Assembly (NCBI GenBank): GCA_029260265.1
Contig: JAJDDO010000024.1
Location: 931,458 to 995,457, forward strand
From: Phycisphaerales bacterium
GTDB taxonomy: Bacteria > Planctomycetota > Phycisphaerae > Phycisphaerales > UBA1924
Reading direction: 5' to 3'
DNA: 64,000 bases
Under the pieces are notes generated by a model. It was not told the DNA's origin and did not search any database. It saw nothing but the letters and a program-made list of their open reading frames with translations. This document shows positions 11,599 through 15,043 of this stretch, in pieces (within the stretch, counting starts at the first letter, position 1; each line of letters begins with the position of its first letter). The position numbers were made by a program, and so were the translations under genes.

Positions 11599-12981
11599 AT
11601 GGGCAGCGAGCAGCATTCATCTAGTGACCAAGCGCCACGCGGTGCATCTGCGGACGATACCGCTCCGTTCGGGAATGAAACGCTCGAGTCCGAACAGATC
11701 ACTGTCGCCGATGCCGAAAAGTCGATCATGGAGGCCACCAAGGATGGCACCAATCTCGACACGCTGATCGGGCGCCTCGTGATCGACCAGGGGCTGGCGA
11801 CTCCAGAAGAAGTCAAGCACTGCCTTACGCTGACACGCAACGAGACGGAGGATGCCTCGGACAACTCGCTCGCACACATGCTCGTCAATCGGGAGTATGT
11901 CACCAAACGCCAGCTCGTGCGTCTGCGCGAAGCAATCGAGGCCGAACGCTCGGGCAACTCCATCTCGGGGTACAAGGTTCTGGGCAAGCTCGGCGCTGGA
12001 GCAATGGCGACGGTGTACAAAGCCAAGCAGGTCTCGCTCGATCGGCTTGTGGCGATCAAAAAACTCCCCGAGAAGTTCTCGCAGAATCCACAGTTCATCG
12101 AGCGATTCTTTGCTGAGGGACGGGCAGCCGCATCGCTCAATCACCCCAATATCGTCCAGGCATTCGATGTGGGCAATGAAGGGGATGTCTACTACTTCGT
12201 CATGGAGTATGTCGAGGGGCGTAGTGTTCACGAGGATATCGTCAAGCACAAGCGGTATCCGGAAACCGAAGCGATCGAGATCGCGATCCAGATCGCCGAA
12301 GCGCTCGAGCACGCCCACCACCGGGGCTTGATCCACCGGGATGTTAAGCCCAAGAACATCATGATCACCAAAGAAGGGGTCGTGAAACTCGCCGATATGG
12401 GCCTTGCGCGTGCCATAAGCGATGTCGAAGCCGCCGAGGCCGAGGCCGGCCGTGCCTTCGGCACGCCTTACTACATCTCACCCGAGCAGATCCGAGGCGA
12501 GAAAGACGTCGGCCCACCCGCTGATATCTATTCGCTCGGCGTGACCCTCTACCACATGGTGACCGGATCCGTTCCATTCGAGGGCAAGAGCCCCAGCGCG
12601 GTCATGCATAAGCACCTCAAGAGCGAGCTGATCCCCCCGGATCATGTCAACCCCAAGCTCGGTGCAGGGATTTCTGAGGTCATCGAGATGATGATGGCCA
12701 AGAAGGTGAAAAACCGGTACCAGAACTGCACAGATCTACTGGTTGACTTGCGTGCCATCAAGAACGGCGATCGCCCATTGATTGCCCACAAAGATGTTTT
12801 TCATGCGGACGATCTGGCATCACTCGCCGCTGCAGAAGCCGCGGTCGAGACCGCGATCCCCGAGGATGAGGCGGGCAGGGGCAACAAGACCCTCGCCGAT
12901 CATCTGCTCTGGCCACCATTCTTGGTGCTGGCGGGGTTGTTGTTTATCAGCCTGGTTCTTCATCTGGTCCAACTCGGGTAA
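11599..12981 (+). CDS. Ser/Thr protein kinase (Hanks type) with C-terminal membrane anchor
   Basis: A 460-residue kinase. Residues about 53-115 contain two helical repeats (LIGRLVIDQGLATPEEVKHC and LAHMLVNREYVTKRQLVRLR) resembling the N-terminal MshEN/GspE-type domain. The kinase domain follows at about 124-385: glycine loop GKLGAGAMATVY, catalytic Lys154 in VAIKK, IHRDVKPKN with Asp248, and the metal-binding motif as DMG (266-268) instead of DFG. The substrate loop contains FGTPYYISPEQ. A single hydrophobic segment near 438-458 with a short tail would tether it to the membrane. The MshEN part suggests input from cyclic-di-GMP or a partner, which is inference. GGAG lies 4 bases before the ATG at 11599. 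Confidence 0.88.
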   Translation: MGSEQHSSSDQAPRGASADDTAPFGNETLESEQITVADAEKSIMEATKDGTNLDTLIGRLVIDQGLATPEEVKHCLTLTRNETEDASDNSLAHMLVNREYVTKRQLVRLREAIEAERSGNSISGYKVLGKLGAGAMATVYKAKQVSLDRLVAIKKLPEKFSQNPQFIERFFAEGRAAASLNHPNIVQAFDVGNEGDVYYFVMEYVEGRSVHEDIVKHKRYPETEAIEIAIQIAEALEHAHHRGLIHRDVKPKNIMITKEGVVKLADMGLARAISDVEAAEAEAGRAFGTPYYISPEQIRGEKDVGPPADIYSLGVTLYHMVTGSVPFEGKSPSAVMHKHLKSELIPPDHVNPKLGAGISEVIEMMMAKKVKNRYQNCTDLLVDLRAIKNGDRPLIAHKDVFHADDLASLAAAEAAVETAIPEDEAGRGNKTLADHLLWPPFLVLAGLLFISLVLHLVQLG

Positions 12982-13128
12982 TCCCCATCACCACTTCCAC
13001 CTCTTTCACAGGTTCTGACTTGCTTTCAGCCCCTGAGGATGGTTCAATACAGCTCATCGCCCCTGGGAGTAAACTATTCTCGGCGGGACAACAGGCCGAT
13101 ATCAGGTGCAGATCGCACAGCATATCAC

Positions 13129-13134
13129 AAGGAG
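13129..13134 (+). promoter_or_regulatory. Shine-Dalgarno sequence that sets the AUC start of infC
   Basis: AAGGAG at 13129-13134 is 7 bases before an in-frame ATC at 13142-13144. The GTG at 13106 lies upstream of this site and the ATG at 13160 lacks one. Confidence 0.7.
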
Positions 13135-13141
13135 ATCGAAC

Positions 13142-13909
13142 ATCGCTCGCAGACGCTTTATGAGACCGCAGGGACCCGTCCAGCGGACAAGAATTAATCA
13201 CATGATCCGCCTCTCCCCGATCCGCCTGATCGGCGAAGACGGCGAACAGCTCGGGGTTGTTGAAACACCAGACGCCATGCGCATGGCTCAGGATGCCGGG
13301 CTCGACCTTGTCGAAGTCGTCTCCGATTCTCGCCCGCCCGTGTGCAAGATCATGGACTACGGCAAGTACAAATACGAGCTCTCCAAACGGGCCAACAACT
13401 CGAAATCGTCAAATCAAGAGCTCAAAGAAATCAGGCTCGGGCGTTCGATCAAGATCGATCCGCATGATGTTCAGATACGCGTCGAGCAGGCACGGAGATT
13501 CTTGATCGCCGGTCACAAGGTCTCGATCACCCAACGATTCCGCGGGCGTGAGATCATGCACAAGCAGCTCGGCGAAGAGCGCCTGTTCAATATCTGCACC
13601 GACCTCGCGGATGTCTCCAAGGTTGAGATGCCTCCGCGTGGGCAGGGGCGTGCGATCTCGGTGGTTCTTTCACCGGATAAGCCAAAGATCGAATCGTATG
13701 TCGCCAAGCAAGCCGCCGAAGGCAAACGGATCGAGGAAGAAGACCTCGCCAAGCTCGAAGCCGAAGTCGCAGCCCAGAACGCCAAGCTCGAAGCCCAAGA
13801 AAAGCATGAGGACGAGCAGGACGAGAAGAAAGAGAAGCAGAAGGGCCCCAAAGACGATCGCGCGAGCAATCCTGTCGATGACGAGATCGCCGACCTTCTC
13901 GGCGGGTAA
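13142..13909 (+). CDS. infC: Translation initiation factor IF-3 (probable AUC start)
   Basis: IF-3 binds the 30S subunit, keeps subunits apart and checks the start codon and initiator tRNA. The N-terminal domain includes RINHMIRLSPIRLIGEDGEQ and VVSDSRPPVCKIMDYGKYKY. The C-terminal domain includes EIRLGRSIKIDPHDVQIRV and VSITQRFRGREIMHKQLGEE. A charged Lys/Glu-rich tail of about 65 residues follows, longer than usual. I place the start at ATC 13142 (translated Met-Ala-Arg-Arg-Arg-Phe) because it follows AAGGAG at ideal spacing and gives the planctomycete-like N-terminus. Rare starts (AUU, AUC) on infC are a known device for autoregulation. rpmI and rplT, its usual partners, do not follow; a terminator does. 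Confidence 0.93.
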   Translation: MARRRFMRPQGPVQRTRINHMIRLSPIRLIGEDGEQLGVVETPDAMRMAQDAGLDLVEVVSDSRPPVCKIMDYGKYKYELSKRANNSKSSNQELKEIRLGRSIKIDPHDVQIRVEQARRFLIAGHKVSITQRFRGREIMHKQLGEERLFNICTDLADVSKVEMPPRGQGRAISVVLSPDKPKIESYVAKQAAEGKRIEEEDLAKLEAEVAAQNAKLEAQEKHEDEQDEKKEKQKGPKDDRASNPVDDEIADLLGG

Positions 13910-13938
13910 GCAGGTTACAGGACAGATCCAGCCTCACC

Positions 13939-13966
13939 AACCCGGGCAACAAGCCCGGGTTTTTCT
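13939..13966 (+). terminator. Intrinsic terminator after infC
   Basis: AACCCGGGC (13939-13947), loop AACAA, GCCCGGGTT (13953-13961), then TTTCTT: a perfect 9-base-pair stem 30 bases after the infC stop. Confidence 0.9.
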
Positions 13967-13970
13967 TGTC

Positions 13971-13976
13971 TAGACT
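13971..13976 (+). promoter_or_regulatory. Candidate leaderless -10 element (TAGACT)
   Basis: TAGACT ends 5 bases before the GTG at 13982 and starts right after the infC terminator, so the next gene needs its own promoter here and has no room for a Shine-Dalgarno sequence. Confidence 0.5.
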
Positions 13977-13981
13977 TCCCT

Positions 13982-14296
13982 GTGAAACCGACCAAACCAA
14001 CCGGCACACACGATGCGGTCGTCCAGATCGATGGCGAGCACGAAACCCAGACCGGGTGGCTCTACACATTCTCGGTTCAATGGGCGGATGGTTCGAGTTC
14101 CGACCACGAAATGACCATCTCATGGGTTGATCACGAGCACCTCGTTGGCGGCGGTGTCTCGCCAAGCGTGCTTGCACACCGAGCCGCTACCCAAGCCGCG
14201 AATCATCTCGGGAAGGGCGGTCTCCCCGCACGATGCGATGTTTCGAGCCTGAGCCGAATGATCGAGAACTTCGATGCGTTGGTCCGTGAGATGTGA
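13982..14296 (+). CDS. Small hypothetical protein, 104 residues
   Basis: A short soluble protein with an N-terminal beta-rich half (GWLYTFSVQWADGSSSDHEM) and a C-terminal helical half (SVLAHRAATQAANHL, SSLSRMIENFDALVREM). No signal peptide or catalytic motif is visible and I do not recognise the family. The GTG start at 13982 follows TAGACT by 5 bases with no Shine-Dalgarno sequence. It is isolated from infC by a terminator, so it is its own transcription unit. Codon use matches the neighbours, which supports it as a real gene. Confidence 0.65.
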   Translation: MKPTKPTGTHDAVVQIDGEHETQTGWLYTFSVQWADGSSSDHEMTISWVDHEHLVGGGVSPSVLAHRAATQAANHLGKGGLPARCDVSSLSRMIENFDALVREM

Positions 14297-14344
14297 TCGT
14301 CCACACGCACTGACGGGGCATGCAACACTTTGCGGGCTGGACGG

Positions 14345-14350
14345 TATGGT
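14345..14350 (+). promoter_or_regulatory. Candidate leaderless -10 element (TATGGT)
   Basis: TATGGT ends 6 bases before the ATG at 14357; no Shine-Dalgarno sequence is present. Confidence 0.4.
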
Positions 14351-14356
14351 TCATCT

Positions 14357-15043
14357 ATGAGACACCTATCCGCTGCAGCATTGGCCCTTTTCTCCCTCAG
14401 TCTCCTCATCGGTGGTGCGCCCAAGCCTGAGAGTCGGGTCTACGCGTTCGCGTATCTCCTGCTCGATAAGCCCGAGGCGCTCAGCGAGTCTGAGATGAAC
14501 ACCGCGATGGGTGGGCACTTCAGCAACATGGAGGTTCTTGCCGAGGAGGGCAAGCTGCTGATCGCAGGCCCGCTCGCCGAGCCGCGAATCGACGACACCT
14601 ACCGCGGGATCTATGTGTTCGATGTCACCGATGCCGAGGCCGGTATGAAACTCTTCAACACCGACCCATCGGTACAGGCCAAGGTGTTCAAGCCCGAGAT
14701 GTACCTGATCGAGTGCAGCGAGCCACTTCTCGAACTGCCAAGACTCGAGAAAGAGGACGAGGCCGCCCGGCTCGCGGATCCAGAGATTCCAGATGAATGG
14801 GCGGGGCGTTTCTATGTGCTCGCGATCGCACCGGGAGACGCCGAGTTCGAGATCACCGACAAGGTGCTCATCAACGCAACGATGACATCAACCGGCGTTG
14901 AACCGATCACGCAGCGGCTGCTCTTTCTTGATTACGAAAAGGCAGATCTTGCCAATGATGAGTTCGAGGCTGCGGACATCACCGAGTGGTCGTTCTACGG
15001 CTGGTACGGATCCAAGTGCGTTTCAAAGATGGCCACGGATTGA
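14357..15043 (+). CDS. Exported YciI-like (YCII-related) protein
   Basis: A 228-residue protein with an N-terminal signal peptide (MRHLSAAALALFSLSLLIGG) and a ferredoxin-like domain typical of the YciI family: FAYLLLDKPEALSESEMN, HFSNMEVLAEEGKLLIAGPL and GIYVFDVTDAEAGMKLFNTD, matching the 'H..nl..L.e.Gkl..aGP' pattern. The C-terminal half may be a second, degenerate copy. YciI proteins are usually small cytoplasmic enzymes or binding proteins of unclear role, so export is unusual. The start at 14357 is preferred over 14330 because it gives a clean signal peptide and a TATGGT 6 bases upstream. It runs toward uvrA, with 7 bases between the two stops. Confidence 0.7.
   Translation: MRHLSAAALALFSLSLLIGGAPKPESRVYAFAYLLLDKPEALSESEMNTAMGGHFSNMEVLAEEGKLLIAGPLAEPRIDDTYRGIYVFDVTDAEAGMKLFNTDPSVQAKVFKPEMYLIECSEPLLELPRLEKEDEAARLADPEIPDEWAGRFYVLAIAPGDAEFEITDKVLINATMTSTGVEPITQRLLFLDYEKADLANDEFEAADITEWSFYGWYGSKCVSKMATD

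Follow-up and report, generated by a model that had tools for sequence, protein, structure and literature searches.

The stretch of DNA analysed here, which we call the window, comprises 64,000 nucleotides (positions 931458-995457 of contig C17) of a Phycisphaerales genome of 2.93 Mb that is 92.8% complete; the named loci nearest to its own come from genomes of Planctomycetota and Phycisphaerales. The window carries infC, the gene for initiation factor IF3, which gave the sole IF3_C match of the genome in a profile search. When the protein is read from position 13142, both PF05198 (IF3_N, residues 18-85) and PF00707 (IF3_C, residues 93-178) score above their cut-offs, so that the N and C domains by which an IF3 is identified are both present, and an alignment with E. 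coli IF3 spans the two. The frame runs to a stop at 13909, and its last part (13676-13909) encodes a charged, Lys/Glu-rich extension of 77 residues past the C domain; open frames of well over 230 codons are also seen in many members of the family. Upstream of infC lies a protein kinase gene (11599-12981), and downstream a terminator-like hairpin is followed by an open reading frame of 104 amino acids with no Pfam match (Table 1). Sites of this terminator type number 4 per 1.5 kb in a consensus scan, against 1.6 in shuffled sequence. Since the hairpin and this unassigned frame come directly after it, with neither rpmI nor rplT in that place, the gene is not the head of an infC-rpmI-rplT cluster of the E. 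coli type. A simple promoter scan of 12900-14400 returned no promoter.

Table 1. Features of the infC start region in the window, and infC loci of other planctomycetes with a putative ACG start
Feature	Position or loci	Strand	Basis
Shine-Dalgarno AAGGAG of infC	13129..13134	+	sequence; 16S tail with anti-Shine-Dalgarno
Predicted ATC (AUC) start codon of infC	13142..13144	+	Shine-Dalgarno placement and family conservation
Internal in-frame ATG (Met7), judged non-start	13160..13162	+	column poorly conserved as ATG
Upstream in-frame GTG, judged non-start	13106..13108	+	precedes Shine-Dalgarno; column rarely ATG/GTG/TTG
infC, IF3, 255 aa	13142..13909	+	Pfam IF3_N and IF3_C; aligned with E. coli IF3
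Intrinsic-terminator-like hairpin, directly 3' of infC	13939..13961	+	9 pairs (7 GC), then TTTCTTGTCT
Putative ACG-start infC, order of G211	L173, L179, L184, L265, L290, L291		Shine-Dalgarno and ACG
Putative ACG-start infC, order of G211, continued	L292, L294, L296, L297, L298, L299		Shine-Dalgarno and ACG
Putative ACG-start infC, family f30	L272, L276, L303		Shine-Dalgarno and ACG

Seven bases separate the Shine-Dalgarno (SD) sequence from the ATC, and the 16S-tail sequence GGATCACCTCCTTT, which carries the anti-SD, occurs once in the genome. GGGCTCATAACCC also has a single site there, within a tRNA-Met(CAU) that has a GGG/CCC anticodon stem. As a pattern, AAGGAG followed after five to nine bases by ATH (ATC, ATT or ATA) is no rarer than chance, with 2 occurrences in the window against 4.6 expected; what lends weight to the SD and ATC is their standing where the infC gene begins, together with their conservation. 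RNA folding around the start was no better than that of shuffles (z 0.37) and a search of the start region against Rfam gave two matches, both far under the gathering scores. We reject an RNA element near the start on these grounds, and it is the codon alone that hints at regulation. A preliminary description of this DNA had located the SD sequence, the gap and the three candidate codons exactly as listed in Table 1, and had taken the ATC as the start; we consider it very likely, from the sequence comparisons that follow, that infC begins with AUC at 13142, an AUH codon behind an SD being better supported here than any ATG, GTG or TTG.

Within the family, IF3_N was found in 58 of 61 genomes, that of the window included. 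The other 57 contributed 55 members to the analysis and a wider draw added three; with one duplicate dropped, 57 family members were analysed (the matches in G046 and G051 were left out of the sample). With eight start codons allowed, the start was ATH in 54 of these 57 genomes (48 ATC, 5 ATT, 1 ATA), while five decoy codon sets applied to the same genomes gave 2, 4, 3, 2 and 9. A codon-agnostic choice, which takes whatever in-frame codon has the most suitable distance from the strongest SD, fell on ATH in 53 of 57; the preceding codon was ATH in 2 of the 57 and the following codon in 1. GGAG and ATH are seven bases apart in the window; of the 54 ATH members, 21 have this same distance, 32 have 8 bases and 1 has 9. 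The comparison of infC 5' regions among relatives, which the preliminary description had proposed as a check, thus strongly favours its claim of an AUC start.

The same alignment bears on the possibility that translation begins at GTG 13106, which would give a protein 12 residues longer and make the SD and ATC fortuitous. GTG is a usual start codon and the frame is open, but the codon lies upstream of the SD, its column holds ATG, GTG or TTG in just 4 of the 54 ATH members, and in 31 of the 54 an in-frame stop falls within the 12 codons 5' of ATH. More broadly, 37 of the 55 ATH cases (the window counted) have no in-frame ATG, GTG or TTG between the last stop and ATH, and 22 of the 55 also have none between ATH and the codon just before a conserved Asn. 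In G059, a member of the same genus, an in-frame TAG lies eight codons 5' of the ATC with no ATG, GTG or TTG between them; a start at the GTG is in our judgement hardly credible. In G059 an ATT immediately follows the TAG, yet it is upstream of the SD.

The internal ATG at 13160 would give a protein six residues shorter. From the SD to the conserved domain no other ATG is in frame, that of the N-H-M motif aside. It is however without an SD at the right distance, and of the 30 family members that share the N-terminal length, 2 have ATG in its column and 21 have Tyr or Phe. Among the 12 codons preceding ATH, 11 have a residue entropy of 2.7-3.8 bits and the one lying in the SD has 1.1; the value is zero at ATH itself, as the selection dictates, and 1.6-2.4 over the next five codons. 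The residues between ATC and ATG 13160 are less variable than those at most upstream codons, which speaks against a start at the ATG. G059 again stands against it, having ATC (Ile) in the column of the ATG, and we regard initiation there as very improbable. The preliminary description had likewise dismissed both the GTG and the ATG, a judgement that this one relative bears out in either case. Immediately 5' of the conserved Asn, G059 carries GTG, and ATG, GTG or TTG stands at this place in 20 of 57 family members; initiation at this point would remove the conserved N-terminus, and is judged unlikely. Because ATH is conserved in nearly all of the family and G059 contradicts the alternatives, we conclude that an AUC, or more generally AUH, start of infC is the rule in this lineage.

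Relatives with a plain ATG at a different position, which according to the preliminary description would speak against the AUC start, do occur, but in 3 of the 57 family members (L013, L193 and L194), the other 54 keeping ATH. These three lack ATH at the site; their ATG lies some two codons 3' of it, as is also the case in the named loci L062 and L065. As all five use ATG, a poor start codon is evidently not indispensable. In every one of the five, GGAG is separated from ATG by 12-13 bases, as against 7-9 for ATH, as if the SD had been left at its old place; weak initiation may in these relatives be kept through spacing. One further locus, L023, looks intermediate, as it combines an ATC 8 bases from the SD with an ATG 14 bases from it.

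Outside the family, starts were called by a rule requiring an SD match of at least four bases at a set distance and allowing the same eight start codons. The rule is not free of errors: L163 was called ACG, is GTG by eye and was removed; in L062 a fortuitous match of four bases produced an ATC call, where inspection by eye shows ATG; and both L194, given as GTG, and L013, without a call, are ATG by eye. By eye, uncalled loci show ATG in L013, L277 and L285, and ATA in L087, L107, L109 and L129. In all, 316 loci had an IF3 N-domain, from which 2 with cut N-termini and 19 duplicates were removed (L053 is without an N-domain). Matches in G086, G098, G103, G114, G127, G133, G151, G162, G164, G168, G189, G196, G227 and G228 are outside the samples; since many of the matches left out are low scorers or fragments, the samples lean towards better-scoring IF3.

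By this rule, ATH is the start in all six loci from the rest of the order (4 ATC, 2 ATA) and in 60 of 69 from the rest of the class (30 ATT, 29 ATC, 1 ATA), the remainder of the latter being seven TTG and two without a call. The sample from the rest of the phylum gives ATH in 41 of 63 (20 ATT, 14 ATC, 7 ATA), alongside TTG (5), CTG (4), ATG (3), ACG (2, of which L163 is false), GTG (1) and seven without a call. The codon-agnostic choice is weaker at these distances: it falls on ATH in 33 of 69 loci of the class, with ATH at the next codon in 17 and at the preceding codon in 8, and on ATH in 16 of 64 in the phylum, with 17 and 4 respectively. Three groups were sampled separately. The class of G224 (10 loci in nine genomes) has three ATC, three ACG, two ATG, one ATT and one locus without a call; the order of G221 (8 loci) has five ATT and one each of ACG, GTG and TTG; and the order of G211 (13 loci) has 12 ACG and one TTG. 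Altogether, the rule assigns the 227 planctomycete loci, the window included, to ATC (99), ATT (61), ATA (11), ACG (18), TTG (14), ATG (6), CTG (4) and GTG (3), leaving 11 without a call, and among 68 named loci from planctomycetes and other phyla it finds 55 ATH (L062 wrongly) and nine without a call. Two loci, L174 and L246, show no clear ATH, NTG or ACG at the start of infC; GTC or GTT is possible there.

Base composition plays a part in the choice between ATC and ATT. From the Ile codons of the 171 planctomycete genes with an ATH start, 127.5 ATC, 34.0 ATT and 9.5 ATA would be expected, and GC3 is 0.81 in genes with an ATC start against 0.69 in those with ATT. We reject the idea that AUC is favoured relative to AUU on separate grounds, as ATT is if anything over-represented and GC3 differs.

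The start described here is of a published kind. In E. coli (NC_000913, used as a control) infC has ATT behind GGAGGA, and the likeness lies in the same gene with an SD followed by an AUH-type codon; the differences are that the codon is AUU there and AUC in the window, and that rpmI and rplT follow the E. coli gene, whereas the hairpin and the 104-residue frame follow this one. Streptomyces infC shares the ATC codon itself (PMC5472188), and ATC also stands at the head of IF3 in actinobacterial loci such as L111, L123, L124 and L131, but Streptomyces belongs to another phylum and the residues from the start onward are ISTETR, as against IARRRF. Streptomyces sigR, with a GTC start that IF3 represses, is a further case in which a non-canonical start serves control by IF3, though in a different gene, with a different codon and without autoregulation (PMC5472188). 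The preliminary description was right as to the AUC start, but its view of AUC as a rarer choice than AUU fails, AUC being the commonest infC start in the family and already published for Streptomyces (PMC5472188); an AUH start of infC is ordinary in this lineage.

What such a start might do is suggested by published work. From the ATT start of infC in E. coli and its ATC start in Streptomyces, IF3 is described as controlling its own translation (PMC5472188), AUU starts of infC are on record in both E. coli and B. subtilis (PMC1805508), and an in vitro survey is described as finding that Watson-Crick pairs are needed at codon positions 1 and 2 and that weak third-position pairs are disfavoured by IF3 (PMC10158994). 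By analogy with the E. coli and Streptomyces work, IF3 autoregulation is the likely function of the AUC start in the window. The ordinary CAU initiator tRNA, aided by a good SD, would begin translation at AUC 13142; since the third base of AUC pairs poorly, 30S complexes on the infC mRNA would be rejected at high levels of IF3 and would pass at low ones. Taken jointly, a start at AUC read by the CAU tRNA with the help of the SD, and a feedback of IF3 on its own mRNA, form a reading that we hold to be highly probable.

One may ask instead whether AUC, though the start, is kept solely for a constant low level of IF3, with no feedback. The relatives with ATG at a stretched distance from the SD look, in all five cases, as if weak initiation as such had been kept, and because the use of ATC, ATT and ATA partly tracks the GC3 of the gene, the exact AUH codon seems of little matter; both observations would suit a low constant level. 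Against this, a change of AUU to AUG reportedly abolishes autocontrol of infC in E. coli, to go by the title of work by Butler et al. from 1987, and we think a low level without feedback improbable. Feedback by IF3 through the AUC codon accordingly remains the reading that we prefer.

The survey also brought to light starts of a different sort. In the order of G211, IF3 is found in 13 of 14 genomes and an SD followed by ACG stands at the start of infC in 12 of these 13, the exception, L293, having TTG; in family f30 the same arrangement is present in three of three, two of which are near-identical members of one genus. For the order of G211 the decoys AGC, CAG, CGA, GAC and GCA give 0, 3, 0, 0 and 7 of 13 (GCA is often the second codon), and the codon-agnostic choice falls there on ACG in 7 of 13, with ACG at the next codon in 4. 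Two further ACG loci are ambiguous: in L175 (G163) an ATT immediately precedes the ACG, and in L278 (G221) the open frame is long and five of the eight loci of the order have ATT. All 17 ACG loci, the two ambiguous ones included, are devoid of ATG, GTG and TTG from the ACG to the conserved Asn, and seven of them, among which is L175 with its ATT, are so from the last in-frame stop to the ACG as well; L173 and L272 have not one NTG or ATH codon from stop to Asn. Of the 18 loci called ACG (the false L163 included), 15 have Ala, Thr or Ser as their second residue.

Among 11 ACG loci, the 10 that extend into the genes behind infC have ATG or GTG at the start of rpmI, and rplT starts with ATG in 10 of 10, by an ORF finder limited to ATG, GTG and TTG; nine such proteins searched against Pfam matched L35 (5 of 5) or L20 (4 of 4), with matches beginning at residue 2-6. 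A CAU initiator tRNA was detected through GGGCTCRTAACCC in 16 of 18 genomes, with no match in G224 and G221 (the 18 include G233, whose infC has TTG), and five of the CAU initiator loci are tRNA-Met by ARAGORN. A special initiator with a CGU anticodon can be dismissed, since the CGT form is present only in G234, where ARAGORN finds no tRNA. On a quick IF3 tree, which is weak and splits the order of G211, ACG requires six changes, at least four by starred branches, the ambiguous cases being counted.

In an E. coli reporter library, ACG is described as giving 0.1-1.5% of the expression of ATG (PMC6925171), and in vitro work with IF3 has employed ACG as a test codon (PMC8266586). From the arrangement of the loci we consider it probable that infC of some deep planctomycete lineages starts at ACG, a codon whose second base forms a mismatch with the CAU initiator. 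Such ACG starts in planctomycetes look new: we found no report of ACG infC starts in the open-licence literature, among the matches listed. A survey posted on arXiv by Gvozdjak and Samanta in 2020, said to cover bacterial genes that prefer non-AUG starts, could hold one.

For the window, the AUC start likely fixes the N-terminus of IF3. AUH is a common infC start among the sampled planctomycetes, and annotation limited to ATG, GTG and TTG will for this reason misplace infC starts in the group. The exchange of AUC, AUU and AUA, the relatives with ATG and a stretched SD gap, and the ACG lineages together amount to natural experiments on how IF3 itself is restrained. Among these results it is the ACG starts that merit pursuit: if they are true, autocontrol by IF3 would rest in those lineages on a codon that IF3, to judge from the in vitro survey (PMC10158994), should not tolerate, and they make it testable how far a natural bacterial start may depart from AUG.
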